The translations under genes and the position numbers were made by a program. From IMG/VR virus record IMGVR_UViG_3300017951_000073, positions 1-30,175 of that record: a DNA stretch of 30,175 nt; one strand, 5' to 3'. How positions within the stretch are numbered: position 1 is the stretch's first letter; each line of letters starts with the position of its first letter. Below the pieces are notes generated by a model. The model did not search any database. It was not told the origin of the DNA and worked only from the letters and a program-made list of their open reading frames with translations. This DNA is from a virus. Of this stretch, positions 6,326 through 29,461 are shown one piece after another.

Positions 6326-6326
6326 G

Positions 6327-10565: not shown

Positions 10566-10629
10566 GCGGCGCAACGGCCACTCGCGCCAGCATATCCACG
10601 CGAATTGCCGCGTTCAGCAAGGTGCTTAT

Positions 10630-10665
10630 TTGTGCGTTGACAAAGGTGTCAGAATTGCGTGATGT
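10630..10665 (+). promoter_or_regulatory. Rightward late promoter-like site before TerS
   Basis: The shared 10-mer TTGTGCGTTG (10630-10639) runs into a perfect -35 TTGACA (10637-10642) that also forms an inverted repeat TGACA-N4-TGTCA (10638-10651). A -10 at 17 bases (TGATGT, 10660-10665) is weak, so an activator or a modified polymerase may be needed. The same 10-mer precedes three other late modules. Confidence 0.5.
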
Positions 10666-10703
10666 TTGGGGGGGAACACAAGGGGGGGCAAGTGAGATTG
10701 AGT

Positions 10704-11075
10704 ATGACTGATGTAGTGAAGTTAACCGAGAAACAGTACGCTCTTGTAGATACACTCGTAGCAGAAGGCTGTAGCATCACAGAGGCGGCTGGCAAAGCCG
10801 GTTACGCAGAGGGTGAAAGCGGTAGGGTCAGCGCCAGCCGTGCTTTGCGTCAGCCGCATGTGCAAGCGTACATGATGCAGAGAGTTGGTGAAACACTCGG
10901 TGTTAATGCTACGACAGCGGCGGCGCGCCTTGTCAGGCTTGCCACGGGGGCCAAGAGTGAGTACGTCCAGCTAGAAGCTAGCAAAGATATCTTGGACAGG
11001 GCTGGGTTCAAGGCCCCCGACAAGCATATGCACTTACACAGTGGTGATATTAAAGTCAGTATAGATCTGAGCTAA
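10704..11075 (+). CDS. terS: Terminase small subunit
   Basis: 123 residues from ATG 10704. LTEKQYALVDTLVAEGCSIT then EAAGKAGYAEGESGRVSASR and ALRQPHVQAYM form the N-terminal DNA-binding HTH of small terminases. The C-terminal part (VGETLGVNATTAAARLVRLA, EYVQLEASKDILDRAGF) matches their oligomerisation/TerL-contact region, with the usual 'ILDRAG-K' end. It recognises the packaging site and recruits TerL, encoded about 2.3 kb downstream rather than adjacent. Starts at 10659 or 10662 are possible but lie upstream of the expected transcript start. The structured region before it is a good pac candidate. Confidence 0.82.
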   Translation: MTDVVKLTEKQYALVDTLVAEGCSITEAAGKAGYAEGESGRVSASRALRQPHVQAYMMQRVGETLGVNATTAAARLVRLATGAKSEYVQLEASKDILDRAGFKAPDKHMHLHSGDIKVSIDLS

Positions 11076-11096
11076 ACTAGCCGAGGGCTAGTTTTT
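11074..11096 (+). terminator. Rho-independent terminator after TerS
   Basis: AAACTAGCC (11074-11082), loop GAG, GGCTAGTTT (11086-11094) with the stem running into a TTTTT tract (11092-11096), overlapping the terS stop codon. It separates TerS from the following mini-gene cluster, at least partly. Confidence 0.8.
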
Positions 11097-11118
11097 GCTC
11101 AGGGGGTGGGGGTCAAAA

Positions 11119-11202
11119 ATGGCAATACGTTACTGGCAAGGTGTCTACCACGAACATAAATGCTTAAAAAGGCTCGCAACCAAATTGAAAATATTTTTTT
11201 AG
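11119..11202 (+). CDS. Possible 27-codon basic peptide
   Basis: An ATG behind a G-rich stretch (GGGGGT) opens 27 codons ending in TAG: basic with a hydrophobic end (CLKRLATKLKIFF). It fills the gap between the TerS terminator and the mini-gene cluster. Support is weak, and it may be a leader peptide or chance. Confidence 0.25.
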   Translation: MAIRYWQGVYHEHKCLKRLATKLKIFF

Positions 11203-11215
11203 CTAGAGGTGCGTC

Positions 11216-11392
11216 ATGATGTTTTCAGACCCGAACAACAGTTTAGTTGTTAGGTTATTTAAAAAGATGCAGCAAGAGCGTGGTTTACAGGCTCAAGCGG
11301 CGAAGACTGAGAACCGCAAAAAGAAGCAAGCTCGTAAGCAGAGGCTTACTTTACTTCGTGGCAAGCGTAGATATGATGATGTAAGGGGTTAG
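11216..11392 (+). CDS. Basic mini-protein, paralogue A
   Basis: 58 residues (57 if the second ATG is used), AGAGGTG upstream. A hydrophobic/basic N-terminus (SLVVRLFKKMQQERG) leads to an arginine/lysine helix (KTENRKKKQARKQ) and the C-terminal motif RLTLLRGKRRYDDVRG. The last 16 residues closely match the next gene, also 58 residues, so the two are tandem duplicates. Strong positive charge suggests nucleic-acid or capsid-interior binding; function unknown. Confidence 0.6.
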   Translation: MMFSDPNNSLVVRLFKKMQQERGLQAQAAKTENRKKKQARKQRLTLLRGKRRYDDVRG

Positions 11393-11394
11393 TC

Positions 11395-11571
11395 ATGTTA
11401 AGAAAAGGTGTACAGTTAGCGGTTCAATACGGCGCTATCAGTCCAAAGTCTGAGGTTGATGCGAAGCAAAAAGTCAATGCAGAATCAAAAAAGAAACGCA
11501 AAGCAAAAGCAGAACGGCGCAAGCGTTTAACTTTATTGCGTGGTTCTCGCAGATATAGGGATGTGACGTAA
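11395..11571 (+). CDS. Basic mini-protein, paralogue B
   Basis: 58 residues, starting two bases behind paralogue A. N-terminus MLRKGVQLAVQYGAISPKSE differs, but a basic helix (ESKKKRKAKAERRK) and the C-terminus RLTLLRGSRRYRDV align with the upstream copy. The stop overlaps the next start (TAATG). A tandem duplication kept in such a compact genome suggests both copies are used. No family known to me. Confidence 0.6.
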   Translation: MLRKGVQLAVQYGAISPKSEVDAKQKVNAESKKKRKAKAERRKRLTLLRGSRRYRDVT

Positions 11572-11834
11572 TGTGCGTTGGTGGTGGTTCAGGCCCAGTT
11601 TATAGTACTGCTGTTTCGGTTGACACTAGTACACAACCCATTAAGAGCAAGTACCCATTGACTGAAGCTCAGAAGAAAGAGAATGCGCGTCGCCGCAAGT
11701 TGCTTGAGCGAAAGAGTTTACTTGGAACTCAAGGCAATAATGATAAAGGTGGTGATGGCAATTTGGGTGGTTCATCAAAAGGCGGCAGTAATTTTGGCGG
11801 GTTTAATGACGCAAGTGGGGGCTTTGGCGTGTAA
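11571..11834 (+). CDS. Small glycine-rich protein (MC-GGG type)
   Basis: 87 residues. It begins MCVGGGSG and has the central motif EAQKKENARRRKLLERKSLL, then a Gly/Asn/Ser-rich tail (GGSSKGGSNFGGFNDASGGF, ending GV). The order 'MC-G..., proline/polar, RR-LL-SLL, GG-GF' matches the small protein encoded before the portal at 14989 and similar small proteins near terminase/portal genes in T7-like marine phages. The RRKLLERKSLL segment also echoes the LTLLRG motif of the two upstream genes. Role unknown; TAATG overlap at both ends. Confidence 0.6.
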   Translation: MCVGGGSGPVYSTAVSVDTSTQPIKSKYPLTEAQKKENARRRKLLERKSLLGTQGNNDKGGDGNLGGSSKGGSNFGGFNDASGGFGV

Positions 11835-12178
11835 TGCGTAGGACACCAGCATGGCAGAGAAAAGAAGGCCAGAACCCTCAAGGTGGGTTGAACGACAAAG
11901 GACGCGCATCTTACAAGGCACAAACAGGCGGCACACTCAAAGCGCCAGTCAAGGGTGCGGCAGACACACCAGAGAAACTGAGGCGCAAAGGAAGTTTCTT
12001 GACGCGCATGGGTTCCGCAAAGGGGCCATTGAAGGATGAGAAGGGCAGACCAACTAGATTGAAGAAGTCATTGGTTGCATGGGGCCACAGTGGTGACAAG
12101 GCTAGCGCGGTTGCTAAAGGCCGTTCCCTTCTAAAGCGTTACCAAAACACAAAGAAAAGGAAGAAAGCCAATGCCTAA
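11834..12178 (+). CDS. DUF6321-like basic protein
   Basis: 114 residues. The start AWQRKEGQNPQGGLNDKGRA followed by SYKAQTGGTLKAP and later SFLTRMG, KGPLKDEKGRPTRLKKSLVA, W matches the pattern I associate with DUF6321 (AWxRKEGKNPxGGLNxKGxxSY ... FxxRM ... SLxxW). Highly basic with no hydrophobic segment. Often found near packaging genes in marine phages; function unknown. It overlaps the next gene. Confidence 0.7.
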   Translation: MRRTPAWQRKEGQNPQGGLNDKGRASYKAQTGGTLKAPVKGAADTPEKLRRKGSFLTRMGSAKGPLKDEKGRPTRLKKSLVAWGHSGDKASAVAKGRSLLKRYQNTKKRKKANA

Positions 12179-12323
12179 TGTCGCGGGAAAATACTACACT
12201 TATACCCCTGCTGGTAAAAAGGCGGCTGAGAAAGCCGCGCAGAGTTTACTTACTAAGCAACAGAGAACGCTTCCAAAGGCTATCCAAGCCAAGATCATTA
12301 AGAAAAAGATGGGGAAAGCGTAA
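12171..12323 (+). CDS. 50-residue basic mini-protein (MPNVAGKYYTYTPAGKKAA type)
   Basis: Starts inside the end of the previous gene and ends in TAATG with the next. The N-terminus MPNVAGKYYTYTPAGKKAAE is the recurrent signature of a small marine phage family (MP-V-GK-Y-YTP-G-KAA). The rest is a lysine-rich helix ending IIKKKMGKA. Translation is supported by the coupling at both ends. Function unknown. Confidence 0.62.
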   Translation: MPNVAGKYYTYTPAGKKAAEKAAQSLLTKQQRTLPKAIQAKIIKKKMGKA

Positions 12324-12571
12324 TGGCTAGGTATCAAAAACATGATGGCACTATCTATGATGGGCCTGTAGTTACTATGCCGGATGGCAGAATTAAGACT
12401 GGCGCAACACTTACTGCTGACTCAGAGCGTGTATTCCCAATGCCAGAACGTGCAAGAGATGAGGATGGTGGGTTTAAATCTGACGATCCTTCTACAGCAG
12501 AAGTAAATGAGGCTTGGCAAGGTGGCAAAGCACCAATCAAAAAGAAGCGTGTAACTAAGAAGAAGGTATAG
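12323..12571 (+). CDS. Small protein of the late mini-gene cluster
   Basis: 82 residues. A beta-type N-terminal half (YQKHDGTIYDGPVVTMPDGR, IKTGATLTADSERVFP) is followed by an acidic linker and a very basic C-terminal tail (PIKKKRVTKKKV). The tail suggests contact with DNA or with acidic protein surfaces. The start overlaps the preceding stop. Not recognised. Confidence 0.6.
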   Translation: MARYQKHDGTIYDGPVVTMPDGRIKTGATLTADSERVFPMPERARDEDGGFKSDDPSTAEVNEAWQGGKAPIKKKRVTKKKV

Positions 12572-12573
12572 TC

Positions 12574-12816
12574 ATGGGTAAAACATTAATGAAGCCAACA
12601 TCAAAAGGTGTAATGCGTAAGTTAGGCAGTGAAGAAGCTCAAGCTAACATTAGAGCAAGAACTAATTATGCAAAGACAATTGGTGAGGCCAGCAAGAAAG
12701 CTAACGAAACAATGACGTTTTCTGGCAAAGCTGACTTTATGGAAAAAGTAAGAAAGCTGGCAAGAAAGCAATATGATTTAGATATTTTCTTTGAAGGCGG
12801 AAAGCCAAAGAGTTAA
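12574..12816 (+). CDS. Small basic protein of the late mini-gene cluster
   Basis: 80 residues: basic N-terminus (MGKTLMKPTSKGVMRKLGSE), helical middle (QANIRARTNYAKTIGEASKK), then KADFMEKVRKLARKQYDLDI and a short end. It begins two bases after the previous stop. No family recognised. Possibly helical and nucleic-acid binding by composition only. Confidence 0.58.
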   Translation: MGKTLMKPTSKGVMRKLGSEEAQANIRARTNYAKTIGEASKKANETMTFSGKADFMEKVRKLARKQYDLDIFFEGGKPKS

Positions 12817-12818
12817 TT

Positions 12819-12986
12819 ATGGCAGTTAATGAAGCTGGCAACTATACCAAACCAAAGATGCGAAAGAGTTTGTTCAATCGCATAAAGGCTGGCAACAAAG
12901 GCGGAGCTAGTGGTCAGTGGTCAGCGCGTAAAGCCCAGATGCTTGCCAAAGCATACAAAGCAAAAGGCGGAGGCTATACGTCTTGA
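12819..12986 (+). CDS. 55-residue basic mini-protein (AGNYTKP...GQWSARKAQMLAK)
   Basis: Short, but with a clear conserved pattern: NEAGNYTKPKMRKSLFNRIK then AGNKGGASGQWSARKAQMLA and KAYKAKGGGY. The same series of motifs recurs in small late genes of marine phages. Lysine/arginine/glycine-rich, no hydrophobic segment. Its last bases contain the TTG start of the next gene. Function unknown; perhaps a DNA-condensing or capsid-lumen protein by charge. Confidence 0.65.
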   Translation: MAVNEAGNYTKPKMRKSLFNRIKAGNKGGASGQWSARKAQMLAKAYKAKGGGYTS

Positions 12987-13228
12987 AAAATCCACAAAAA
13001 TCTTTGGTGAATTGGACAAAGCAAAAGTGGAGAACCAAGTCTGGTAAACCATCTACTCAAGGCCCAAAGGCTACTGGTGAACGTTACTTGCCAGCCGCCG
13101 CTATAAAAGCTATGTCTAGTTCACAGTATGCGGCTTCTTCAAAGAAAAAGCGTGAAGATACCAAGAAAGGGAAGCAATTCTCCAAGCAACCGAAAGGCGC
13201 GGCGGCGATTGCTAAAAGATATAGATGA
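12983..13228 (+). CDS. DUF5872-like basic protein (TTG start)
   Basis: 81 residues. SLVNWTKQKWRTKSGKPSTQ followed by GPKATGERYLPAAAIKAM, SSSQYAASSKKKRED and GKQFSKQPK matches the pattern of DUF5872 (WTKQKWRTKSGK...TGERYLP...GKQF), found in phages and some protist viruses. The start is a TTG overlapping the previous stop (TTGA). Function unknown, strongly basic. Confidence 0.7.
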   Translation: MKNPQKSLVNWTKQKWRTKSGKPSTQGPKATGERYLPAAAIKAMSSSQYAASSKKKREDTKKGKQFSKQPKGAAAIAKRYR

Positions 13229-13419
13229 GTTTTCTACACACACTGAAGGTAGAAGAACGTGACCTTCTTCGCAGAATAGTGAAGAAAGTACACCTTGCTC
13301 ACCACCCAAAAGAATTTTGTACCGACCATGAGGCTGATAAAGTTATTGCTGTTATTGGCCCAGAAGTAATTGATCGCATGATTAAGTTCGGTAAGGATAA
13401 CAAGGTTGACCAGCTTTAA
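13225..13419 (+). CDS. Conserved small protein preceding TerL
   Basis: 64 residues: LKVEERDLLRRIVKKVHLAH, HPKEFCTDHEADKVIAVIGP, EVIDRMIKFGKDNKVDQL. Four histidines plus a cysteine and Asp/Glu residues (HLAHHPKEFCTDHEAD) could bind a metal. The pattern is a frequent companion of terminase large subunits in marine phages. It overlaps TerL by 14 bases. Possible packaging accessory; not demonstrated. Confidence 0.65.
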   Translation: MSFLHTLKVEERDLLRRIVKKVHLAHHPKEFCTDHEADKVIAVIGPEVIDRMIKFGKDNKVDQL

Positions 13420-14926
13420 CTACAAGCCTGATGGCAATGTACTAAAAGCATTTATGAAAGATGATAGTTTCTTTCGTGGCATTCGTGGGCCTGTAGGCTC
13501 TGGGAAATCTGTGGGTTGTTGTGTTGAAGTCTTTCGCAGAGCTTTAATGCAGAAGAAAAACAAAGATGGTGTTCGGCGTAGCCGCTGGGCAATCATCAGA
13601 AACACTAACCCACAACTTAGAACAACCACAATAAAGACTTGGCTTGACTGGTTTCCAGAGGATGAGTGGGGCAAGTTTATGTGGTCGGTTCCATATACAC
13701 ACTGGATTAAGCAGGGTGATCTGGAACTAGAAGTAATCTTCCTAGCACTCGACAGGCCTGAAGATGTCAAAAAGCTCCTCTCCCTTGAACTTACTGGCAT
13801 CTGGATTAATGAGGCTAGGGAGATACCTAAATCAATTATTGACGCATGTACTATGCGTGTTGGTCGTTTCCCTTCTATGCGTGATGGTGGGCCTAGTTGG
13901 TCTGGGGTCATCGCTGATACTAATGCTCCTGAAGAAGATCACTGGTGGCCTATTATGTCTGGTGAAGTTCCTGTGCCGGATCATATCCCGCTTGAGCAAG
14001 CGCGGATGCTAGTCAAACCAGATAACTGGAACTTCTATATTCAGCCAGCGGGAATGGATGAAGTTAATGGAGAAGATGGTTCTGTTGTTGATTACAAGCC
14101 AAACAAGAAGGCTGAGAACGCAAAGAACATGCTTGAAAGCTATTACCCGAATCTAATTCGCGGTAAAACAAAAAGCTGGATTGATGTCTATGTGATGAAT
14201 AAACTTGGCACTATTCAAGAGGGTAAACCAGTGTATCAAGGTTTTGTTACTGAAACACATGTAGCCAAAGAAGAAATACCTATTGCTGATGGCATACCGC
14301 TGTACATTGGAATTGACTTTGGTTTGACACCCGCCGCTGTGTTTGGACAGAAAGTACGCGGCAGATGGTTAATCCAGTCAGAGATTGTAGCTATTGACAT
14401 GGGCATTGTTCGCTTTGCTGAACTGCTCAGACAGGAGATTGCTACACGTTTTGCCAATCAAGAAGTCAAAATTTTTGGTGATCCGGCTGGTGACTTTCGC
14501 GCACAGACTGATGAAAGTACACCTTTTCAAATACTTAGAGGTGCTGGCTTACGAGCAACACCCGCACCAAGCAACTCTGTTGACTTGCGCTTAGAAGCTG
14601 TGTCGTCTTCTTTGAACAAGATGGTTGATGGCAAGCCAGCATTTTTGATTGATCGGCGTTGCCCAACATTAATTAAAGGCTTTGAAGGCGGGTATCAGTA
14701 CAAACGTATGCAAGTATCTGGTGAGCGTTTTGATGACAAGCCAGAAAAAAATATGTATTCACACATCCATGATGCGCTTCAGTATCTGATGCTTGGTGCT
14801 GGTGAAGGTAGACAGCTTATATCTGGGCAGAAACCTTTAACTGCATTCAATGCTAGATCTGAGTTTGATGTGTTTGCAAGGAAGCCAAAGCAACAAAAAC
14901 GTCAAGGCTTATGGGCAAGAATGTGA
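13406..14926 (+). CDS. terL: Terminase large subunit
   Basis: 506 residues, TTG start with AAGG upstream. ATPase: Walker A GPVGSGKS (28-35), Walker B GIWINE (131-136, Glu136 catalytic). The coupling/linker region around residues 165-180 reads GVIADTNAPEEDHWW. Nuclease (RNase H fold): Asp304 in YIGIDFGLTP, Asp359/Asp363 in FGDPAGDFR, Asp456 in HIHDALQY. This is the motor that packages DNA through the portal and cuts it at the end of each round. The length is usual. It abuts the conserved TTGTGCGTTG site that opens the portal module. Confidence 0.95.
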   Translation: MTSFNYKPDGNVLKAFMKDDSFFRGIRGPVGSGKSVGCCVEVFRRALMQKKNKDGVRRSRWAIIRNTNPQLRTTTIKTWLDWFPEDEWGKFMWSVPYTHWIKQGDLELEVIFLALDRPEDVKKLLSLELTGIWINEAREIPKSIIDACTMRVGRFPSMRDGGPSWSGVIADTNAPEEDHWWPIMSGEVPVPDHIPLEQARMLVKPDNWNFYIQPAGMDEVNGEDGSVVDYKPNKKAENAKNMLESYYPNLIRGKTKSWIDVYVMNKLGTIQEGKPVYQGFVTETHVAKEEIPIADGIPLYIGIDFGLTPAAVFGQKVRGRWLIQSEIVAIDMGIVRFAELLRQEIATRFANQEVKIFGDPAGDFRAQTDESTPFQILRGAGLRATPAPSNSVDLRLEAVSSSLNKMVDGKPAFLIDRRCPTLIKGFEGGYQYKRMQVSGERFDDKPEKNMYSHIHDALQYLMLGAGEGRQLISGQKPLTAFNARSEFDVFARKPKQQKRQGLWARM

Positions 14927-14927
14927 T

Positions 14928-14964
14928 TTGTGCGTTGCGTTCTGCAACTAATTGTGTTTATGAA
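14928..14964 (+). promoter_or_regulatory. Rightward promoter-like site before the portal module
   Basis: TTGTGCGTTG (14928-14937) flows into GTTGC-GTTCT-GCAAC (14934-14948). TTGCGT (14935-14940) could be a -35 with TATGAA (14959-14964) 18 bases on. Fourteen bases here (14925-14938) are identical to 18214-18227 before the capsid gene. It begins right behind the terL stop codon. AGGAG for the next gene follows. Confidence 0.55.
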
Positions 14965-14988
14965 TTGAGTTCTAGCTAGGAGATTGCA

Positions 14989-15201
14989 ATGTGTACAAGT
15001 AGACCACCAGCACCACCACCACCTGATCCAAACATTGCTTTACAGCAACAGGCTCAGAAGGCAGAAGCTACTGCTTCAAAGAAAGAAGCTAAGGCTAAAC
15101 AGCTAACATCAACAGTTTCTCGTATGCGCGGCGGCAAAGGTCGTAGATCTTTGATTAAGAGTTCAAGCGGCGGAATGGGTTTCTATAGCGAGTATTTGTA
15201 A
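14989..15201 (+). CDS. Small protein preceding the portal (proline/GG-rich)
   Basis: 70 residues: MCTSRPPAPPPPDPNIALQQ, a charged helix (KAEATASKKEAKAKQLTSTV), then RMRGGKGRRSLIKSSSGGMG, FYSEYL. It is the usual small gene before the portal in T7-like marine phages and is related in layout to 11571-11834. TAGGAG lies upstream; the stop overlaps the portal start. Role unknown. Confidence 0.65.
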   Translation: MCTSRPPAPPPPDPNIALQQQAQKAEATASKKEAKAKQLTSTVSRMRGGKGRRSLIKSSSGGMGFYSEYL

Positions 15202-16784
15202 TGATAACATACGCTGATACCTCTACTGGTGTTTATGAAGGCGGTAAGATTGCTCAAACATATTTGAAAAAATATGAAAGAGCCAAAACATTGCGTGAAA
15301 ATTTTCTTCCATTGTTTGAAGAATGTTACGAATACGCATTGCCTCAACGTGAATCATTTTATGCAGAATCAGTAGGACAGCGTAGAGATGACAAAATATT
15401 CGATGAAACGGCTGTTGTTGGAGTTCAGGAATTTGCTTCAAGACTTCAATCGGGCTTGGTTCCTAACTTTGCTAGATGGGCGGATTTTACTGCGGGTTCT
15501 GAAGTACCGCCTGAAGACAGAGATGAAGTTAATAATCAATTGGATGAAGTCACGGATTACGTCTTTGAAGTTATTCAGAATTCAAATTTCGGTCTGGAAG
15601 TTCATGAATCGTTTATGGACTTGGCGGTAGGCACTGGCGTTTTATGCGCTATGGAAGGTGACGCAGTAAACCCAGTTATGTTTTCTGCAATACCACTGCC
15701 GCATGTAGTTCTTGATACTGGCCCTGATGATCGTGTTGATCATGTATATCGTGAGCGTTCTGTACGCAACTCAGATATACCTGTAATGTATCCAAAGGTT
15801 GCATTATCTGAGAAAATACAAACTAGAATTAATAATAACCCTGATGAGCGTACAAAAGTTCTTGAAGTTGTATGCCGTGATTATTCTAAATTAAATCAAG
15901 AAGCATACTTATTTTATGCAATAGAAACAAATACTAAGGAAGTAATTAAGCAAGAAGCCTACAATGGGATAGGCTCAAATCCGTTTATTTGCTTTCGCTG
16001 GTCTAAGGTATCTGGTGAAATTTATGGACGCGGCCCACTAATAAATGCACTTAGTGCAATTAAAACTACTAACCTTACAATTGAGTTGATTCTTGAAAAT
16101 GCACAGATGGCAATCTCAGGCATTTATCAGATGGACGATGACGGTGTTATTAACCCAGATACTATTAATCTCGTCCCCGGAACCGTCATACCAAAAGCGG
16201 CGGGATCAATGGGCTTACAGCCTGTTCAAGCGGCTGGCTCTTTCGATGTTGCTAATCTTGTTCTTAGCGATATGCGTTTGAATATTAAACGCGCTTTGTA
16301 CAATGATATGCTTGGCGATCCAAATAAAACACCAGCTTCTGCAACAGAGATTGCAGAGCGTATGGCTGACTTATCAAGACGTATTGGCTCTGCCTTTGGC
16401 AGATTGCAAGCTGAACTAGTTCAGCCTGTATTGCAAAGAGTTGTGTACATTCTGAAAAAACAAGGACGCATTGAACTGCCAACAATGAATGGCAGAGAAG
16501 TAAAAGTGCGTTCTATTTCACCTCTTGCACAGGCTCAGGCGAACCAAGACATTTCCTCCGTGGCTAGATTCCTTGAACTTGTGCAAGGCAGATTTGGCCC
16601 AGAGTTGACAAACATTCTAATTAACTCTGAGGAAACTGCCGCTTATCTTGCTAAGAAGTTTGGTGTTCCAGATGTGCTTGTTCGTGATCTGGAAGAACGC
16701 CAACAGATAGTACAGATGGCGCAACAAATGGCTCAGCAACAACAGATGATGCAACAGGGAGAACCGCCAGTTGGTCAAGGATAG
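15201..16784 (+). CDS. Head-tail connector / portal protein, T7 gp8-like
   Basis: 527 residues. Early segment YLKKYERAKTLRENFLPLFE, CYEYALPQRESFY, then FDETAVVGVQEFASRLQSGL and VPNFARWADF is the signature of the T7-type head-to-tail joining protein. A mid-domain FICFRWSKVSGEIYGRGPLI and late TPASATEIAERMADLSRRIG follow, and a glutamine-rich C-terminus (QMAQQMAQQQQMMQQ) ends it. It forms the dodecameric DNA channel at the capsid vertex and docks TerL and the tail. It is followed by scaffold and capsid as in T7. Confidence 0.93.
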   Translation: MITYADTSTGVYEGGKIAQTYLKKYERAKTLRENFLPLFEECYEYALPQRESFYAESVGQRRDDKIFDETAVVGVQEFASRLQSGLVPNFARWADFTAGSEVPPEDRDEVNNQLDEVTDYVFEVIQNSNFGLEVHESFMDLAVGTGVLCAMEGDAVNPVMFSAIPLPHVVLDTGPDDRVDHVYRERSVRNSDIPVMYPKVALSEKIQTRINNNPDERTKVLEVVCRDYSKLNQEAYLFYAIETNTKEVIKQEAYNGIGSNPFICFRWSKVSGEIYGRGPLINALSAIKTTNLTIELILENAQMAISGIYQMDDDGVINPDTINLVPGTVIPKAAGSMGLQPVQAAGSFDVANLVLSDMRLNIKRALYNDMLGDPNKTPASATEIAERMADLSRRIGSAFGRLQAELVQPVLQRVVYILKKQGRIELPTMNGREVKVRSISPLAQAQANQDISSVARFLELVQGRFGPELTNILINSEETAAYLAKKFGVPDVLVRDLEERQQIVQMAQQMAQQQQMMQQGEPPVGQG

Positions 16785-17043
16785 GACGTATCTATCTCTT
16801 GATGGGTTTCGCCGCGATAAGAGTGAAGACACAAGAATCAGTTTAGACATAGCAACTTTATTCAATACCGACACAGGCAAATCGGTATTGCGTTACTTAC
16901 GGTCTATTACCATAGAACAAGTTAATGGCGCTGGCGTTAGCAATGACGAATTGCGCCATATGGAAGGACAGCGATATATCGTTGGCCTCATTGAGTCGCG
17001 TATGCAAAATGCACACAAATCAAAGAGGGCAGAAAATGAGTGA
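16771..17043 (+). CDS. Small conserved structural-region protein, Bbp19-like
   Basis: 90 residues from a TTG overlapping the portal end (GGGAG upstream). The core DIATLFNTDTGKSVLRYLRS, ITIEQVNGAGVSNDELRHME, GQRYIVGLIESRM is a pattern common next to portal genes of short-tailed phages (FxTxxGxxVLxYLRxIT ... ELRHxEGQRYLVGLI), which I associate with Bbp19-type proteins. Function unknown, possibly a minor head component. It overlaps the scaffold gene by 8 bases. Confidence 0.65.
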   Translation: MVKDRTYLSLDGFRRDKSEDTRISLDIATLFNTDTGKSVLRYLRSITIEQVNGAGVSNDELRHMEGQRYIVGLIESRMQNAHKSKRAENE

Positions 17044-17767
17044 AGAAGCAGAAGCACAAGTAGAAGATTCTGGTGTTGTTACCGAAGGTGGTGATCCACG
17101 TTTAGAAACTGTTGAGCAAGCTAGACCAGAATGGTTGCCAGAAAAGTTTAACACTCCAGAGGATTTGGTAAACTCATACACAAATCTAGAAGGCAAGCTA
17201 GGCAAAAAAGACGAAGACATTCGCAATGCGATTATTGAAGAACTAAGCCAAGAAGCCTTTGCTAATCGTCCAGAAACTGCTGGTGATTATCAATTACCAG
17301 AATCTATTGACGAAGAATCTGCTACAAGTAACGAGCTTTTAAGCTGGTGGGCAGAAACTGCATTTGAAAATGGTTATAGTCAGGAACAGTTTGAAGAAGG
17401 CATTAACATGTATGTTGAAGCCTTGAATGCTGATGTTCCAGACTATGATGCAGAAGTTGCAAAGCTAGGCGAAAATGCAGATGCAAGGCAAGAAGCCGCT
17501 AGCTTGTTTGCTAATCAGTTCTTTGAAGAACAGCATCTGCCAGCTATTGAGCGTATGTGTGAAACAGCCGATGGCATTGAGGCATTAGAATACATGATGT
17601 CTGCAATGAAACAAGCTGGCCCATCTATGCAAAGTCAACCAGCAGGGACAATTACACAAGATCAACTTAATCAAATGATGCTTGATCCACGTTGGCATGA
17701 TCCTGCAAAGCGTGATATGTCTTTTGTTAAAGAAGTAGAAGATGGCTTCAAGCGACTCTATGGATGA
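17036..17767 (+). CDS. Capsid assembly scaffolding protein, T7 gp9-like
   Basis: 243 residues from ATG 17036 (AGAGGG upstream). Very acidic. RPEWLPEKFNTPEDLVNSYT then NLEGKLGKKDEDI is the conserved N-terminal motif of T7-type scaffolds. The middle is helical and acidic, and the C-terminus (DPRWHDPAKRDMSFVKEVED, GFKRLYG) carries the basic helix that contacts capsid protein. Position between portal and capsid is canonical. A longer frame from 16925 covers the previous gene and is not used. Confidence 0.87.
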   Translation: MSEEAEAQVEDSGVVTEGGDPRLETVEQARPEWLPEKFNTPEDLVNSYTNLEGKLGKKDEDIRNAIIEELSQEAFANRPETAGDYQLPESIDEESATSNELLSWWAETAFENGYSQEQFEEGINMYVEALNADVPDYDAEVAKLGENADARQEAASLFANQFFEEQHLPAIERMCETADGIEALEYMMSAMKQAGPSMQSQPAGTITQDQLNQMMLDPRWHDPAKRDMSFVKEVEDGFKRLYG

Positions 17768-18278
17768 GGAAGTTGGTCGCATTGGCAAGCTATCTTTAGT
17801 TAAAGCTACTCTAGATCACGCTAGAATGATCGCTGACAGCCTTCGCATGCTTGATGCTAGGGAATGTCTAATATATGGCATGACCCCGCTAGAGGCGCTT
17901 CTAGAGCCGTTTACGGTAACAAATAATAAAACCTATGCCATAAAGTTTGAGGAAACTGTGATTGCTTTATGCGGTACAGTTCCTGTTGTTGAGAACATTG
18001 GCAGGGTTTGGATGCTAGGAACTGGTGGCATAAACCAGAACTGGCGTGTGTTTCTTAGGGGTTGTAAGCCAGCAATAGACATACTCCAAGACGAATACCA
18101 CATGATTGAGAACTTTGTTCCAGAGGATCATCAGGACACAATTATGTGGCTAACATGGTGTGGATTTACTTTTGATAAAGAGATCTACAATGTCCATGGG
18201 CATAATATGTTGCGATTTGTGCGTTGCAGAGAGCAACAAAATAATGTTTATTATCTGAAACGGCCTGTAATGCATTGA
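17742..18278 (+). CDS. GNAT-like / T7 gp13 (DUF2833)-like protein
   Basis: 178 residues. VKATLDHARMIADSLRMLDA, RECLIYGMTPLEALLEPFTV, then YAIKFEETVIALCGTVPVV, GRVWMLGTGGINQNWRVFLR and MWLTWCGFTFDKE resembles the DUF2833 family of T7 gp13-like proteins, which have a GNAT acetyltransferase-like fold. T7 gp13 is needed for assembly of the internal core. Here the gene lies between scaffold and capsid rather than among the internal-protein genes. It overlaps the scaffold gene by 26 bases, and its 3' end contains the promoter-like site for the capsid gene. Confidence 0.72.
   Translation: MASSDSMDEEVGRIGKLSLVKATLDHARMIADSLRMLDARECLIYGMTPLEALLEPFTVTNNKTYAIKFEETVIALCGTVPVVENIGRVWMLGTGGINQNWRVFLRGCKPAIDILQDEYHMIENFVPEDHQDTIMWLTWCGFTFDKEIYNVHGHNMLRFVRCREQQNNVYYLKRPVMH
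18217..18254 (+). promoter_or_regulatory. Rightward promoter-like site before the capsid gene
   Basis: TTGTGCGTTG (18217-18226) runs into GTTGC-AGAGA-GCAAC (18223-18237). TTGCAG (18224-18229) and TATTAT (18249-18254, 5 of 6) are 19 bases apart. It is identical over 14 bases to 14925-14938. It lies inside the end of the GNAT-like gene, about 115 bases before the capsid start: a fitting place for a strong capsid promoter. Confidence 0.55.
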
Positions 18279-18368
18279 GCGACCCGCAAGGACAATCGCG
18301 TTGATATAGCCACGCAGACAACCGCAGAAGAAGACTATTAACCTTAACCTTACGAGAAGGACTGTAAA

Positions 18369-19181
18369 ATGGCGAATACAATTGATACCGCCTTTATTAA
18401 GCAGTTTGAATCAGAGGTTCACATGGCGTATCAGCGCATGGGTTCTAAACTGCGGAACACTGTGCGTACTGTATCAAACGTGCGTGGGAACACTGTTCGT
18501 TTCCAAAAGATCGGAACAGGCTCTGCTTCAACTAAATCACGCAACGGCATGGTAACTCCAATGGAACTGGAACACACCAATGTCGAGGCAACCATGGCAG
18601 ATTACTATGCGGCTGAATACATTGATAAGTTGGACGAACTGAAGACCAACATCGATGAGCGTCAAGCTGTAGCTAAATCTGCGGCGGCGGCACTTGGTCG
18701 TAAGACTGATGAACTGCTAATTACAGCAATGGATGCTGGCGCTAATGCAACACAGATTAACGATACTGCTGGCGCATTGGTAAAAGCTGATTTGCTTACT
18801 CTGTTTGAAACATTTGGCTCTGCTGACATTCCAGAAGATGGTGGTCGCTACCTTGCGATGCACCCTGCTGGTTATGCAGATCTGTTTGCTATTACTGAGT
18901 TTGCTTCATCAGACTTTGTTGGTGACCAGAACTTGCCATACGCTGGCGGCATGACAATGAAAGAGTTCTTGGGCTTCAAGATCTTCTCAACATCAGCCGT
19001 TACTGGTGGTAAGAATATCGCGTATCACACATCATCTGTTGGTCTTGGTATCGGTGCAGACGTTACGACTGAACTGAACTATGTACCAGAGCGTGTGTCA
19101 CACCTTGCAACCTCCATGATGTCAATGGGTTCCGTGGTAATTGATTCCAACGGTATCTATGAAGTCTTGGACAACAACTAA
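18369..19181 (+). CDS. Major capsid protein
   Basis: 270 residues. The N-terminal MANTIDTAFIKQFESEVHMA, YQRMGSKLRNTVRTVSNVRG, NTVRFQKIGTG, then HTNVEATMADYYAAEYIDKL and GRYLAMHPAGYADLF ... SSDFVGDQN is characteristic of major capsid proteins of this podovirus group (HK97 fold; AYQRxGSxLRxTVR at the start of the N-arm). Slightly shorter than T7 gp10. GAGAAGG precedes the start. It should be the most abundant product of the window. Confidence 0.9.
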   Translation: MANTIDTAFIKQFESEVHMAYQRMGSKLRNTVRTVSNVRGNTVRFQKIGTGSASTKSRNGMVTPMELEHTNVEATMADYYAAEYIDKLDELKTNIDERQAVAKSAAAALGRKTDELLITAMDAGANATQINDTAGALVKADLLTLFETFGSADIPEDGGRYLAMHPAGYADLFAITEFASSDFVGDQNLPYAGGMTMKEFLGFKIFSTSAVTGGKNIAYHTSSVGLGIGADVTTELNYVPERVSHLATSMMSMGSVVIDSNGIYEVLDNN

Positions 19182-19193
19182 GGGGATTAGATA

Positions 19194-19463: not shown

Positions 19464-19468
19464 AGGGA

Positions 19469-19506: not shown

Positions 19507-19513
19507 ACTTGAC

Positions 19514-22817: not shown

Positions 22818-22818
22818 A

Positions 22819-25227
22819 ATGGCTGTCATTAGAGAAAAACAACAATTCCAAAATCAGCGCATTGGTGTGGTGCGCATGGATACTGGTGCTGAAAATTACT
22901 ACCAAACAGTTGCTAATGCGGCTGATACACTAACTCAGATTGCATTTAAAGAAGCTGGCAGGGTTGCACAGAAGAAAGGTGCAGAGCTTGCAGAATCTGC
23001 ATCAACACAAAGTTTGCGCACAATTAATCCTGAAACTGGAAAGCCAGAAGCATACAACATACCAGAAAACTTTGGTACTGCGGCTCAAGCCGCTTACGAA
23101 GAAGTTCTTGATCGCAGATTTATTTCAGACGTTGATAACCAAATTAAAGAACGTGCGCGTGAATTAGTTCTAAAATATCAAAACGATCCTCAAGGCGTAG
23201 AGAAATACGGTCAGGCAATGGAAGACTACGTTGCCCAGATGATTAATCCAAAAAACTCTGGCGCGTTAAATGATAGATTCCAGAACATAATACGAGACAC
23301 TGGCGCGGCATTTATTGCTAGCACTAAGTTTAATCTTATGACTAAACGTGCAGAGGTTGTTCAGAACCAACTGCGTGATGGACTTATTCAAGATGCGATT
23401 AATGGCGCAGAAGCCATTGAGGATTTAATTAAATCTGGCAAAGGCAGTGGTGTTGAATTTGTTGGTGTAAAAGAAGGTGAGCGTGAAGTAACAACAGCAT
23501 TAGACCTTATGATTCAAACAGAGATTGATCGTCAAGATGCTGGACTTGATGCCGGAATATTAACTCAGCCACAATTTGAAGCTAATGTAACAGCTTTAAT
23601 GAGTGCATTACCAACTGGCATTCTTAACAATAGACTTAATTATGATGCTGTGTTTGTAGATAATAACGGCAAAGAACAGCGCATGACATCAGACGTTGCG
23701 CTTGAGGTTGAGAATGCGCTTGATACTGGTGTTATTTCAAAAGATCTACCTGAGTCTTTGGTTGCAGAAGTAAACACTATACTTGAGTCAGATGGTTACA
23801 AAAGAAACAAAGCTGGAATACAGCGCAAGGCTGGTGAGTTGCGTGTTGCGTTAAGCAACAGAGAAAAAGAAGTTACAAAAGAAACAAAATTAGAAACAGC
23901 TATGAAGCAAGTTGCTGATGATAGCTATGTAGTTGATACACAAGATGGAATTAATCAAAAAGCTGTAGATGTTTTAATTGCGTCTGTTGAAAAATTAGAA
24001 GACCCAATGAATGCAAATATGGGTGCTTATTATTCAAGTCCAGAATCAACTAAGATTGATGCAAGCTGGAAATATTTTTTGCATACTAAAAACTTAATTG
24101 GTGAAGGTTTGAATCTTTCCTTAAAAAGATTAACTCGTCTTGAAAGAATGTCAGCTGATGAAATGCGAACTGTACTTGGACATTATGATTATATGTCTAA
24201 TGCTGTTGTTGGTGGCTCTATTGTTGATATGTCTTACGGTTCTAAATTATCAAAAGATGAACATGCTTTTCTTAAAGCATTAAACTCAATCACCAAAATT
24301 GCTGGCACTGAAAATATCGTTGAGCTTGCTTCATCGTTAAAAGAAAATATGCAAAATACAAAACTTGTAGATGATAGGGTAAAAACAATATTAGAAGCTA
24401 AAGGAACAGAAGGTGCTGAAAGTGCATTAACTAGATATTTGCAAGAAGGATTTGGCACTGACAGATATATGGTTGAGTTAGCAAGGCCATATGCAAAGCA
24501 TTTAATTATGGCTGGTGTTACTAAAGAAGATTTAGACACAGCTATGAATGAAATGTTTGAATCATCTTACGTTGATACTAATGGTGTTGTTGTAGATCGT
24601 TACAATCCACAAGTTGCAAAATCTATGTTTGCAATGAAAAGAATATTACCATCCGATAAAGACAGAGTTATTTTTTATAAAAATGCGCAAGAATATGTAA
24701 ATAAATTAAGCGGTGGTAATTTTTCTATTGGTGAAAATTTAGTTGGCGTTGATAGGAGCAGGCAAATAAAGCTTGTTCCTATGACTAACAATGCGTTGCA
24801 ACCTGATATGTTACCAATTGAATATACTATTATTGATGAATCTCAAGTTATTGCTGGGCAACCAAAAGAATTAAAAGAAACATCATCATTAGCAACATTC
24901 CAATATATAGCTCATTACATTGATGATAATGGTGAGTTAAAAATGATTCGCAATGAAAAAACTGGTGGGCCAATATTTGTTGGAACTGAATTAGCTAAAG
25001 ATGAAATAGCAATGGTTCGCAAGGCTGAGTCAGAAGATGCGTTACGCTACTCTAACGAGCAAGTTTTAGAAAAACTTCGTATTAATAGAAAGATAAGAAA
25101 GAACATAGAAGCGTTGTCACGTTCATTTGGTGGCCCTGATAAACCTGATAAACCGCCAAGACCACCTAAGCCATTTGTTGGCTCCAAACAATCAATACCA
25201 GATGAGATGAGTGGCGATGTCAATTAA
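22819..25227 (+). CDS. Internal virion protein, gp15-like ejection protein
   Basis: 802 residues. N-terminus QNQRIGVVRMDTGAENYYQT, VANAADTLTQIAFKEAGRVA is the usual opening of large helical internal proteins in this group. The body is long-helical, with a proline/lysine-rich C-terminus (GGPDKPDKPPRPPKPFVGSK). T7 gp15 forms the periplasmic tunnel of the ejectosome. It overlaps the next gene by 11 bases. The reading frame contains one GTTGC-N5-GCAAC repeat (23845-23859). Confidence 0.72.
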   Translation: MAVIREKQQFQNQRIGVVRMDTGAENYYQTVANAADTLTQIAFKEAGRVAQKKGAELAESASTQSLRTINPETGKPEAYNIPENFGTAAQAAYEEVLDRRFISDVDNQIKERARELVLKYQNDPQGVEKYGQAMEDYVAQMINPKNSGALNDRFQNIIRDTGAAFIASTKFNLMTKRAEVVQNQLRDGLIQDAINGAEAIEDLIKSGKGSGVEFVGVKEGEREVTTALDLMIQTEIDRQDAGLDAGILTQPQFEANVTALMSALPTGILNNRLNYDAVFVDNNGKEQRMTSDVALEVENALDTGVISKDLPESLVAEVNTILESDGYKRNKAGIQRKAGELRVALSNREKEVTKETKLETAMKQVADDSYVVDTQDGINQKAVDVLIASVEKLEDPMNANMGAYYSSPESTKIDASWKYFLHTKNLIGEGLNLSLKRLTRLERMSADEMRTVLGHYDYMSNAVVGGSIVDMSYGSKLSKDEHAFLKALNSITKIAGTENIVELASSLKENMQNTKLVDDRVKTILEAKGTEGAESALTRYLQEGFGTDRYMVELARPYAKHLIMAGVTKEDLDTAMNEMFESSYVDTNGVVVDRYNPQVAKSMFAMKRILPSDKDRVIFYKNAQEYVNKLSGGNFSIGENLVGVDRSRQIKLVPMTNNALQPDMLPIEYTIIDESQVIAGQPKELKETSSLATFQYIAHYIDDNGELKMIRNEKTGGPIFVGTELAKDEIAMVRKAESEDALRYSNEQVLEKLRINRKIRKNIEALSRSFGGPDKPDKPPRPPKPFVGSKQSIPDEMSGDVN
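23845..23859 (+). promoter_or_regulatory. Intragenic copy of the GTTGC-N5-GCAAC site
   Basis: GTTGC-GTTAA-GCAAC lies inside the gp15-like gene, the same inverted repeat and spacing as at 9402, 14934 and 18223, but without the TTGTGCGTTG leader. It may be chance or an internal site within the long ejection-protein genes. Confidence 0.25.
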
Positions 25228-28200
25228 TCCTTGGGACACAACTACGCCCACATTGTTTGAGTCTAATGTAGCTCGTAGAACACCTTTACAGCGTGTAGAG
25301 GAGCCTGAGTTTTTTGCTGATACATTACCAGCGGCTCTTGGTTATCAATACATGCCAATGTTTAATGCTGTAAAAAATGCTGTTAAGCATGGAACAGAAG
25401 TACAACAAGGATACAATGCTCTTAATGATGTAGATGGTTATGAAGAATACAAACACCATTTAATGAATGCTGTTAGTGAAGATCATATGATTGATCTTAA
25501 ATTTCAGCTTGATGAAAATAAAAGACGCAGACAAGTTTTGGCTGATTCATCCTTCTGGGCCAATCTAGGCGCTGGTGTATTTGATCCAATTAACTTAGTG
25601 GCACTGCCCTTTGGCGGTGTAGCGGCTACGGCTGGTAGGCAGTTCTTACGCACTGGCGCTGGCGTTGGTTTGACTCAGGCTGGTTTAGAGGTTGCTAGAG
25701 CGCCTTTTGATCCTTTGGCTACCAAAGAAGAAATAGCTATGAACATCGGCTCTGCGTTTGTTATAGGCGGAGCAATAGGTACTTTAACTACTATTCCAGC
25801 TAGACGCAGAGCGGCGGCAATTAAAAAGACTGAAGAAGACATTACTCAGTTTGTAAATGAGTTAGATGAAATTGATCCACAGTTTATGGATCAGTTGAAT
25901 AACAGAGAGCTAAGAGAGTTTGGTGACTTCGGTGATGCAGATCTGTCTAGACTAAGAACAACATTGCCCAAAGAATTGTTTGCGTTAGAAGAAAAACTAG
26001 CTACAGCTACAAAGAAGTTTGAAAGACTCAAAAGAACAATAGACAAAAAACAAAAGCGTAAAGAACAAATTTCTGACATAGAAGTTAAGAAACTAGAAGC
26101 GCTTACTGATGAAACATTTGCTTTGCGTATTGCTGTTTCTGATAAAAACAAACAGATCAAACAAGTCAAAGATGAAGAAAGAATCAGACGCATTCAAGGA
26201 ATTAAAGGCTATAGTGAAGATCTAACAAAGCCTTTTGATTTTGCAGATAACTTTTTTACTGATTCTTTCTTTTTCAAAGGCGTTAGCACAGGCTTCAAGC
26301 GAGTTTTGCAAAACAAGAAAGTTTCACAAACTGTTAAAAGCATGATGGTTAAATTAGCTGGTGACGCTGGCATGCTACATAAAATGAATGAAATGGGCTT
26401 TGCTACACCAAAGTCTGTTTATCAATATGCCGCAACCAGAAATGGTGAGTGGGCAAAAGTCTATATGGATATGCTTGAGCAATATGGTGAGCATACTAAA
26501 AAAGGCTACACACAATTAGGCGATGTAGTTATATCAAACATTGACGGTTCATTCTCAGCTTACCTAAAAGAAGTAAACAGAAAATACATTAACGGTGAAG
26601 AAGCAACTACAACTGCTGAAAAAGAATCTATTCAAGCACTTAAAAACTTTTACAAGACTTGGGAAGACAGGCTTGTAGAAGTAGGCATACTTGGCAATAT
26701 TGATAACATAAAATCAAGAATACTTAGCACTGAGCTAAAGATTAAAAAAGCAGATTCAGATCTGCTTGATGCGCAAATAAAAATTATTAAAGCGTTTATT
26801 GATGATGATGCCATCGAACCAAGCATTAAGCGCATGGTAGAAGGCGATTTCGATAAACGTGAAATATTTGAGAATGTAAAAAACTATGTTGCTAGTGGTG
26901 AAAAATTACCAAAAGGCGCTTCAGCATTTGACCTTGATAAAGTAACAAGGCTTAATACTCGCCTTACAGCATTAGAAGATCAGCTATATGAGCTTGAGTT
27001 TAGCTTGCTTGTTGCTCAAGAACAGCGTCTAGTGCCGCAAAATGAAGAAGATATGTTTCCCCGCTACTGGAATCGTGATGAGATTAGGGCAAGGCGCGGA
27101 GAGTTTGCTAACATTTTACGCGAACACTTCAAAGAAAACCCATACATTTATGAGCGTAATGAAGCGGCATTTGAGCAACGCCGGATTAGGAACCTAAGTG
27201 AATTATCTGATGTTGAGTTAGAAATTAGACTTGGGGAAGAATTTGGCATTAATCAAATTATGACTCAGCTTCAGCAAATAAGAAAAGGTGACAGTGAAAT
27301 TGGTCAAGGTAATGGCATTCTAGGCATGCACATTACCTACTATGGTCAAAAAGGCGATCCATTTAGACGTGTCCTCTTGGATAGAGATGGTATTTACAAA
27401 TACTACAAAGAACTATCTGAGGACATGAAGAACCCAACTGAAGCTATAAACAATTTAGAAAAGCGGTTTGCTAAAAATACTGAAGCCTACGCGCATAGAA
27501 TGATTGTTTATAGAAATTGGGATTTGTTTAAAACATTTAACGATTTTCAAGACTTTGTTTTGATGCATGAATTGCATCACACAAACATAAACAAAAGAAC
27601 TGAAAATGTTAAAACACGCGCTGATCATTTGCGCATGGAAAACAAAACAGACAGGGCCGCAATAGAATATCTAAGACGCGAGTTGCCAATAATTAGAGAA
27701 GGTCAGCCAACATACATTAGGCGTGAGCTTGATGTTACAGATGGGCCAATGCTCGACAAACGTGTTGAGGATACTATTGATAATATTCTTGGGTTGTCTG
27801 ATGTAGCTAATGACATGAATGCTTTTTATGGTGCTGGTAAATCAAAACACATGCGTCATAGATCATTAGATATACCAAACGCAAAGGTTTTTGATTTTAT
27901 TCAGAATGATCCGCTTGCTGTTATGAAAGCATATACGTCACGCGTTGCACCACAGTATGAGTTTGCAAAAGCATTTGGCGGCAAGACAGTTGATGAAGTG
28001 CTAGATGACATTGATATGGATATGGCAAGAACTGGTGCATCTAATGATGAAATAAATGCAGTTAGAAAAGACTTCTTGCATCTTTATGATCGTATTGTAG
28101 GCACAGTATTGCGTGAGCCGCATTCATGGGATCAGCGTACAGCCACAGTACTTAGAGACTTTGCACAGACTAATTATCTTGGTGCCGCTGGCTTTTCTAC

Positions 28201-29419
28201 ATTGCCTGACTTTGCAAAAATTATGATGGAGCATGAACTAAAAGATGTATTTAAAGTATTGTTTGCATCTTTAGGTGATAGTCGTGTTCGTAAAAGCTCA
28301 TTAGAAGGTAAGCTAGCTGGTGAAATATTAGAGATTATTCAAGGCGATGCGCATATGCGCCTTATTGATGATGTTACTAACAATCCATTTAATGAAGGCA
28401 CATACGACAAGTTTATGGGCAAATTAAAGTGGGGTTTTTATCAAGCTAACTTACTTGCACCATTGACAAACATTATGAAAAAGCTAGACGCTGTTGTGCG
28501 CGGTCACTCATTAATTCAAATGTCTGTGCGTCTTGCTGGCGGTGACAAAAAGCCTACAAAGTTTGAAATTGAATATCTTGCTCGTTATGGCATTGACAAA
28601 GCAAAAGCAAAACAGATTCGTGAGCTTGTTGATCAAGGTGTTATTGAACAAACAGATGGTGGTTTGTATCTACCAAACACAGAAAACTGGCCTAAGCAAT
28701 ATGATGATTTGAAGCTAGAGTTTCGTAGTTCGCTTAATAGCGGCATTATGAATACTATTTTGATGGGTACACCAGCAGATAAACCAAACATTGTTGATGG
28801 TGTGGTGTATGTTCCGTATCGCATAGCGCGTATGTTTGGCATGAAAGAAGATCCAAAGTTTCGCGGATATTCAAGGATTGAAAATGGTTTGCTTGGTTTA
28901 CCATTCCAGTTTTACTCATACACATTAGCCGCTATAAACAAGATCACAGCTTCATACGCCACAGGGCAAGCAAGAAATAGAGCAGTTGCACTGGCGGCAT
29001 CTATGGGCTTGGCATACATGGGTCTAGAGCTAAAGAACCCTGACTTTGTAATGGACAAGATGTCTATAGAAGACAAGATTGCGCGTTCATTCGATATGTC
29101 AGGTATAGCGGCACTATACTCAGACATGTTTTACACAGCCATGCACACATCAATGGCACTTGGTGGGCCAGATATATCTATGGGTTTATTGCAACCAAAG
29201 TTTCCACAAAAAGAAAATGTAGCAGATGCTGTTGTTGGTCTTGCAGGCGCTGGGCCAAGCATAGGATTAGACGTAGGCAGAGGCCTCAAAGAATTTATAG
29301 ATGGCAACCATGGCGAAGGTGCAAAACAAATAATGCGTTCAATGCCACTAGCTAGACTATGGATATGGAAAGATTTTATGAATGAAGCAAGTAATGCATT
29401 CACAGCAAAGCGTTACTAA
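25217..29419 (+). CDS. Large internal virion protein, gp16-like ejection protein
   Basis: 1400 residues from ATG 25217 (GTG 25211 is an alternative). N-terminus with DTLPAALGYQYMPMFNAVKN and then a hydrophobic region around residues 115-195 (GAGVFDPINLVALPFGGVAA, GSAFVIGGAIGTLTTIP). Long charged coiled-coil segments (EEKLATATKKFERLKRTIDK) follow, and a C-terminal part with several amphipathic or hydrophobic stretches (RAVALAASMGLAYMGLELKN). Size and last position in the ejection cluster match T7 gp16, which spans the inner membrane and pulls in DNA. I do not see the N-terminal lytic transglycosylase of T7 gp16, so cell-wall opening may differ. Confidence 0.75.
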   Translation: MSINPWDTTTPTLFESNVARRTPLQRVEEPEFFADTLPAALGYQYMPMFNAVKNAVKHGTEVQQGYNALNDVDGYEEYKHHLMNAVSEDHMIDLKFQLDENKRRRQVLADSSFWANLGAGVFDPINLVALPFGGVAATAGRQFLRTGAGVGLTQAGLEVARAPFDPLATKEEIAMNIGSAFVIGGAIGTLTTIPARRRAAAIKKTEEDITQFVNELDEIDPQFMDQLNNRELREFGDFGDADLSRLRTTLPKELFALEEKLATATKKFERLKRTIDKKQKRKEQISDIEVKKLEALTDETFALRIAVSDKNKQIKQVKDEERIRRIQGIKGYSEDLTKPFDFADNFFTDSFFFKGVSTGFKRVLQNKKVSQTVKSMMVKLAGDAGMLHKMNEMGFATPKSVYQYAATRNGEWAKVYMDMLEQYGEHTKKGYTQLGDVVISNIDGSFSAYLKEVNRKYINGEEATTTAEKESIQALKNFYKTWEDRLVEVGILGNIDNIKSRILSTELKIKKADSDLLDAQIKIIKAFIDDDAIEPSIKRMVEGDFDKREIFENVKNYVASGEKLPKGASAFDLDKVTRLNTRLTALEDQLYELEFSLLVAQEQRLVPQNEEDMFPRYWNRDEIRARRGEFANILREHFKENPYIYERNEAAFEQRRIRNLSELSDVELEIRLGEEFGINQIMTQLQQIRKGDSEIGQGNGILGMHITYYGQKGDPFRRVLLDRDGIYKYYKELSEDMKNPTEAINNLEKRFAKNTEAYAHRMIVYRNWDLFKTFNDFQDFVLMHELHHTNINKRTENVKTRADHLRMENKTDRAAIEYLRRELPIIREGQPTYIRRELDVTDGPMLDKRVEDTIDNILGLSDVANDMNAFYGAGKSKHMRHRSLDIPNAKVFDFIQNDPLAVMKAYTSRVAPQYEFAKAFGGKTVDEVLDDIDMDMARTGASNDEINAVRKDFLHLYDRIVGTVLREPHSWDQRTATVLRDFAQTNYLGAAGFSTLPDFAKIMMEHELKDVFKVLFASLGDSRVRKSSLEGKLAGEILEIIQGDAHMRLIDDVTNNPFNEGTYDKFMGKLKWGFYQANLLAPLTNIMKKLDAVVRGHSLIQMSVRLAGGDKKPTKFEIEYLARYGIDKAKAKQIRELVDQGVIEQTDGGLYLPNTENWPKQYDDLKLEFRSSLNSGIMNTILMGTPADKPNIVDGVVYVPYRIARMFGMKEDPKFRGYSRIENGLLGLPFQFYSYTLAAINKITASYATGQARNRAVALAASMGLAYMGLELKNPDFVMDKMSIEDKIARSFDMSGIAALYSDMFYTAMHTSMALGGPDISMGLLQPKFPQKENVADAVVGLAGAGPSIGLDVGRGLKEFIDGNHGEGAKQIMRSMPLARLWIWKDFMNEASNAFTAKRY

Positions 29420-29461
29420 TTGTGCGTTGTGCAGATTACACAAGGAAGGTAGGATTGCGCC
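29420..29461 (+). promoter_or_regulatory. Conserved TTGTGCGTTG site before the tail fibre gene
   Basis: The 10-mer (29420-29429) starts directly behind the stop codon of the gp16-like gene and overlaps an inverted repeat TTGTG-N7-CACAA (29427-29443). TTGTGC and TAGGAT are 17 bases apart, but that -10 would start the transcript at the ATG, behind the ribosome site AAGGAAGG, so the promoter reading is uncertain. The site is better taken as a member of the repeated late element. Confidence 0.45.

Follow-up and report, generated by a model that had tools for sequence, protein, structure and literature searches.

A conserved asymmetric box abutting the -35 element as a likely part of late promoters in a T7-like phage lineage without a detectable RNA polymerase

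How are the structural genes switched on in a phage that carries T7-like virion modules and no RNA polymerase of its own? The question is raised by a stretch of 30,175 nucleotides (IMG/VR record IMGVR_UViG_3300017951_000073, positions 1 to 30,175; hereafter the window), in which the 10-mer TTGTGCGTTG occurs exactly at 10630, 14928, 18217 and 29420, on the + strand only, with a 14-bp identity, GATTTGTGCGTTGC, at 14925 and 18214. We recovered these copies and the longer identity just as the initial annotation had described them, and its remark that no phage polymerase is visible could be extended: PF00940 is absent from 11 records, namely the window and ten box-bearing relatives (T7 positive control, 1e-109), and its absence holds in G005, a probably complete relative. 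The early region is lambda-like, with a RecE-like exonuclease, a single-strand binding protein and an O-like initiator.

The argument that four copies at gene boundaries lie far beyond chance proved too strong. Eight different 10-mers, TTGTGCGTTG among them, reach at least four copies in the window, the most frequent being GTTCTCCTTT with six; when one mismatch to TTGTGCGTTG is allowed, there are 7 matches against 3.1 expected. The copy count in the window is, by itself, weak evidence. The placement at gene boundaries was likewise overstated: the copies at 14928 and 29420 directly follow stop codons, the first beginning two bases beyond that of TerL and the second directly after that of a 1402-aa gene, whereas the 18217 copy lies within the 3' end of a gp13-like gene, 152 bp ahead of the capsid start. 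Further, the functional unit exceeds the 10-mer, as it takes in a -10-like element 17-18 bp downstream (Table 1). The importance of TTGTGCGTTG therefore derives from its being kept in relatives and not from its count in the window.

Table 1. Predicted late promoters and neighbouring features of the window
Feature	Position	Strand	Remarks
Replication initiator (O-like)	4821..5465	-	Same leftward early operon as X and Y
Y, 84-aa XRE/HTH_3 protein	5908..6162	-	Candidate activator; GTG start, overlaps X
X, 67-aa protein	6122..6325	-	First gene of X-Y pair; role from gene position
Putative late promoter A, before TerS	10629..10673	+	Box TTTGTGCG 10629-10636; -35 TTGACA 10637-10642
-10-like element of A, GATGTT	10661-10666	+	Predicted start about 10672-10673
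GGGGGGGAACACAAGGGGGGG, paired G runs	10668..10688	+	Predicted initially transcribed region
TerS	10704..11075	+	Likely true start ATG 10704
Putative late promoter B, directly after TerL stop	14927..14971	+	Box TTTGTGCG; -35 TTGCGT 14935-14940
-10-like element of B, TTATGA/TATGAA	14958-14964	+	Ahead of 70-aa gene (14989) and portal (15201)
gp13-like gene	17742..18278	+	FVRC codons spell site C; weak PF11090 match, below cut-off
Putative late promoter C, within gp13-like 3' end	18216..18260	+	Box TTTGTGCG; -35 TTGCAG 18224-18229; -10-like TATTAT/TTTATT
Major capsid protein	18369..19181	+	
Putative late promoter D, after stop of 1402-aa gene	29419..29462	+	Box ATTGTGCG; -35 TTGTGC 29427-29432; -10-like TAGGAT 29450-29455
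Fibre gene	29462..30175	+	Motif start to ATG exactly 42 nt; gene continues past window end

Across 0.88 Mb of capsid-anchored loci, there are 81 forward and 0 reverse copies of TTGTGCGTTG; a larger set of related contigs holds 310 forward copies, 118 of them non-redundant, and six reverse copies, which sit in the coding sequence of two protein families. By position, the copies in relatives fall into those upstream of TerS (class A), at the TerL stop (B), about 150 bp before the capsid gene (C) and before the fibre gene (D), and some phages have an additional class a short distance past TerS. The late positions match those of the window, and the flanks around them have diverged among relatives while TTGTGCGTTG is unchanged. 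Phages without the word at C generally also lack the short B spacer, the TerL stop almost abutting the next gene, and in L023 the word is found between TerS and TerL, with the C site one base off and B absent. That the repeat is due to chance, or to conservation of protein sequence only, might be entertained in view of the equally frequent 10-mers in the window and the coding nature of site C; however, A, B and D lie outside coding sequence and are retained across diverged phages, and codon choice at C is strongly biased (see below), leaving this explanation with a practically negligible likelihood.

The initial annotation had tied its reading to persistence of the motif in related genomes of the same gene order. 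The outcome is informative: the box is absent in some relatives, yet these retain -35 elements at the corresponding places before TerS and the capsid gene, and in these box-free phages the candidate regulator Y (discussed below) is missing or of a different form. The cultured relatives EXVC031P and MEP301 have no copy of the motif, and HTVC010P has one, antisense within the leftward genes. When viral contigs were scanned for the box with consensus -35 and -10 elements, 16 were recovered, a total close to the chance expectation, with one clearly belonging to this phage family. Terminase-bearing contigs in metagenome-assembled genomes come from scattered taxa only and indicate no single host.

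The word itself is a composite, (T)TTGTGCG lying directly upstream of the TTG that opens a sigma70-type -35 box, a trinucleotide present at all sites by construction. Taken with its location, this makes it likely, in our judgment, that TTGTGCGTTG is the front (upstream) part of a late promoter read by the host RNA polymerase before virion genes. The earlier suggestion of a late-promoter element is strongly supported by position, orientation, conservation and the fixed register to the -35, the -10 and the start codon, and a promoter function may be regarded as well supported by sequence. At the TerS site of relatives, TTTGTGCG-TTGACA is followed after 17-18 bp by a -10-like hexamer (e.g., GATAAA or TGTAAA) and then a G run. 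The TTGACA before TerS is common to relatives with and without the box, and in G005-type phages TTGTGCG and TTGACA at TerS are one base apart; this shift shows the box to be separable from the -35. Counting from the predicted start, (T)TTGTGCG would span about -42 to -36, and the TTG -35 to -33. Among non-redundant sites, a spacer of 18 gives the maximal -10-like signal, both for sites of the TerS class and for the other non-coding class. Sites of this second class have A as the second -10 base in 44/68 (p 5e-8, spacer 18), and a strict TAnnnT has no enrichment there at spacer 17/18 (6/68). The class with a close start codon has the consensus ATATT at motif+32 to +36. The predicted -10 is thus weak and degenerate, xATATT or xATAAA placed 17-18 bp downstream, and promoters B, C and D of the window also have poor -35 ends.

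These features bear on the proposal that an alternative sigma factor, encoded by host or phage, reads the entire 10-mer as its -35 element. Such a factor would account for the great constancy of the whole word and for a -10 unlike TATAAT, but not for the consensus TTGACA at the TerS promoter of box-bearing and box-free phages alike, nor for the displacement of the box against TTGACA in the G005 type; moreover, a search for sigma region 4 in 17 records gave no match over the cut-off and two sub-threshold matches only. We accordingly hold an alternative sigma factor to be improbable.

The spacing to start codons furnishes a further line of evidence. At 17 of 126 non-redundant sites, the ATG of an open frame stands at a distance of precisely 42 nt from the motif start, as against five sites at 43, three at 44 and hardly any between 33 and 41. 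Counting any ATG, +42 is occupied at 18/126, whereas neighbouring positions average about 3 (Poisson p 4e-9), and 17 of the 18 open a frame. This position is close to the base where a promoter with these elements should start; the ATG spacing hence serves as an independent ruler for the start site and predicts leaderless mRNAs, with some late transcripts probably starting on AUG. The fibre gene of the window is one such case (motif 29420, ATG 29462), its ATG coinciding with the predicted start of promoter D. For TerS, an ATG at 10704 is preferred, since the listed GTG at 10659 precedes the predicted transcript start. As a separate observation, a longer word, CATATTG(C/T)A, surrounds the -10 at a leaderless site after TerS in L078, L199, L200, L210 and L173. 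The placement of the motif upstream of the start in the predicted transcript also weighs against its acting at the RNA level, through a hairpin serving antitermination or processing. A short stem can be drawn just downstream of all four window copies and is predicted in some folds; nevertheless, folding of the real sequences shows no clear advantage over shuffled ones (z 0.30, -0.95, -1.96, 0.47) and the stems are not retained in relatives, so that we consider a role in RNA very improbable.

Site C, which would be coding and promoter at once, offers a different view of the selection on the word. Here, it encodes FVRC: the phenylalanine is TTT and the arginine CGT in 39/39 non-redundant homologues each, with CGT making up 28% of arginine codons in the late genes of the window, and the valine is GTG in 25/29, with GTG making up 12% of valine codons in the late genes of this phage. 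This codon bias indicates that the DNA itself is selected beyond the protein. At the same site, a TTGCAA followed 19 bp downstream by TATAAT is frequent in box-free relatives, and the -10 elements are weaker in box-bearing than in box-free phages (medians 2.1 vs 4.8 bits, p 0.007, a value rendered optimistic by the relatedness of the sequences). A box found together with weaker core promoters is more in keeping with an activator than with a repressor.

Which protein might bind the box? The best candidate is Y, whose identity as an activator we propose from its sequence and distribution. It has an HTH_3 domain (PF01381, 33 bits against a curated cut-off of 23), and its structure model (pLDDT 82) has HipB and the C proteins of restriction-modification systems as nearest solved folds. 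We examined its association with the motif in 34 distinct loci anchored on TerS and extending 7 kb or more upstream; to count as motif-bearing, a locus needed one or more exact copies or a nearly exact box ahead of TerS. Y is present in 24/24 motif-bearing versus 3/10 motif-free loci (p 2e-5) and its W-E-x3-R-[VLIM]-P-S form in 24/24 versus 0/10 (p 8e-9), the W-E-x3-R pattern having been picked after the data were seen and the relatives not being independent: the tree needs only 5 motif changes, and independent pairs, in which Y follows the motif or stays unchanged and never goes in the opposite direction, are too few for significance. The three Y forms of motif-free loci lack the W-E-x3-R-[VLIM]-P-S stretch. 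Two further motif-bearing loci from metagenome-assembled genomes (L287 and L289) fit the association, and the motif-free L290 has a diverged Y; in the Y-divergent phage G020n, no convincing variant box was found elsewhere in the genome. The nuclease, exonuclease and O-like genes are present in both groups. X, probably a small DNA-binding protein judging by gene position, has a similar but weaker association (24/24 versus 4/10). X came top when early-gene clusters were scanned. Y had no cluster of its own there, being probably pulled into the initiator cluster by a fusion; its occurrence was scored with a profile search instead. In L085 (EXVC031P; 15431-15958, +), a Y-like HTH makes up the N-terminal end of a longer open frame, the rest of which resembles part of a replication initiator. 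Against Y as the binder counts the shape of the box: XRE dimers usually bind palindromes, and the box is not palindromic. Separately, we note that just before gene X (6325-6365, minus strand), TGCATGAATGCATAATCATGCATCATGC repeats accompany a TTGACA in an operator-like arrangement.

Briefly, reasoning from conservation, orientation, promoter geometry, start-codon spacing, the regulon, the lack of a phage polymerase and Y co-occurrence, all read from sequence, we infer binding by Y, activation rather than repression, and the timing as follows. Early on, the leftward operon would yield X and Y and then the replication genes. Y, XRE/HipB-like, would probably occupy the box (about -42 to -36) as a neighbour of sigma region 4 and bring the host sigma70-type polymerase to promoters that would be weak in the absence of Y. 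The TerS, portal, capsid and fibre modules would thereby be switched on together, late. Alternatively, the box could be an operator through which X or Y, as a repressor, covers the -35 of the late promoters early in infection. The two genes are placed like those of cro/CI-type regulators, the fold of Y is nearest to HipB, an antitoxin and repressor, and the perfect TTGACA of the TerS promoter would need blocking. However, a repressor has no need of sites that all share one orientation and nearly one register, and the core promoters at C are weaker, not stronger, in the presence of the box, with poor -35 ends at B, C and D; repression therefore seems unlikely to us, if marginally less so than an alternative sigma factor. 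Returning to activation by Y, we tentatively, and at somewhat short of even likelihood, envisage a previously undescribed family of small XRE/HipB-like phage activators using an asymmetric 7-bp box abutting the -35 to drive a late regulon whose mRNAs would often be leaderless. The phages concerned would form an uncultured marine clade that couples T7-like virion genes to lambda-like early genes.

Several known systems share parts of this architecture. In the way proposed here, the lambda CII promoters (PRE, PI, PaQ) depend on a small DNA-binding protein of the phage, encoded in an early operon of the cro-cII-O kind, with a site beside or over the -35, the sigma70 polymerase and a weak core promoter. 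CII sites are TTGC-N6-TTGC flanking the -35, whereas the present box is single, asymmetric and 7-8 bp long, lies against the -35 and has structural genes as targets, and the fold of Y is of the HipB/C-protein type; no direct repeat of the CII kind was found across the -35, with only TTGTGCGTTG invariant and nothing comparable up- or downstream. The T4 middle promoters (MotA box with AsiA) also combine a short asymmetric phage box, a fixed distance from the -10 and a host-polymerase regulon. The MotA box is, in contrast, centred at -30 and replaces the -35, while the present one is centred near -39 (about -42 to -36) with the TTG of the -35 retained. As the defining site features of both are missing here, we do not file the box with either the CII or the MotA promoters. 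The restriction-modification C proteins (e.g., C.Esp1396I) have an XRE fold close to that of Y and activate from next to the -35, but they act as dimers on palindromic half-sites, which are absent here, and regulate restriction genes. Finally, T7-like late promoters resemble ours as a repeated phage-specific element ahead of late T7-like virion modules, but differ in that here there is no single-subunit RNA polymerase and the geometry is that of bacterial -35/-10 promoters.

Polymerase-less relatives of T7-like phages, in the HTVC010P-type neighbourhood, have been reported to rely on the host RNA polymerase and to encode two transcriptional regulators; the paper, on a relative, reports sigma70 promoters alongside these regulators and does not describe the box (PMC10504331). 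In a literature search for the 10-mer, made largely among freely accessible papers, the matches listed (20 of 23) were all unrelated, and neither the box nor such a regulator was found described. In the literature searched, there is likewise no description of late-gene switching in these polymerase-less relatives of T7-like phages, for which the box offers a concrete regulon motif, together with a base-exact predicted start site and one named candidate protein; the start-codon spacing adds the prediction of leaderless virion mRNAs. The motif can also help assign fragmented viral contigs to this clade.

Some other features of these genomes deserve mention. Copies of GTTCTCCTTT lie at 3543, 4392, 5061, 5470, 8800 and 10046; on the minus strand they read AAAGGAGAAC, which probably serves the leftward genes as ribosome-binding site. 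The stretch separating the early from the late region (10379-10600) contains the long inverted repeats GGTAGGTGTGGCCCAAG...CTTGGGCCACACCTACC and the pair CAACGTCCG...CGCAACGGCCA, the latter found again in G005 and G006. In each of the contigs G005, G007, G014 and G020, k-mers of one end recur at the other at a constant offset; at about 33 kb, these assemblies probably close into circles and are complete, and it is this repetition of end k-mers at one offset by which G005 closes on itself. The paired G runs just after the -10 of the TerS promoter recur in L011, L017, L035, L069 and L078 and in two box-free phages, G007n and L204; retained in most relatives, box-bearing or box-free, they are possibly a packaging or regulatory element of the initially transcribed region.
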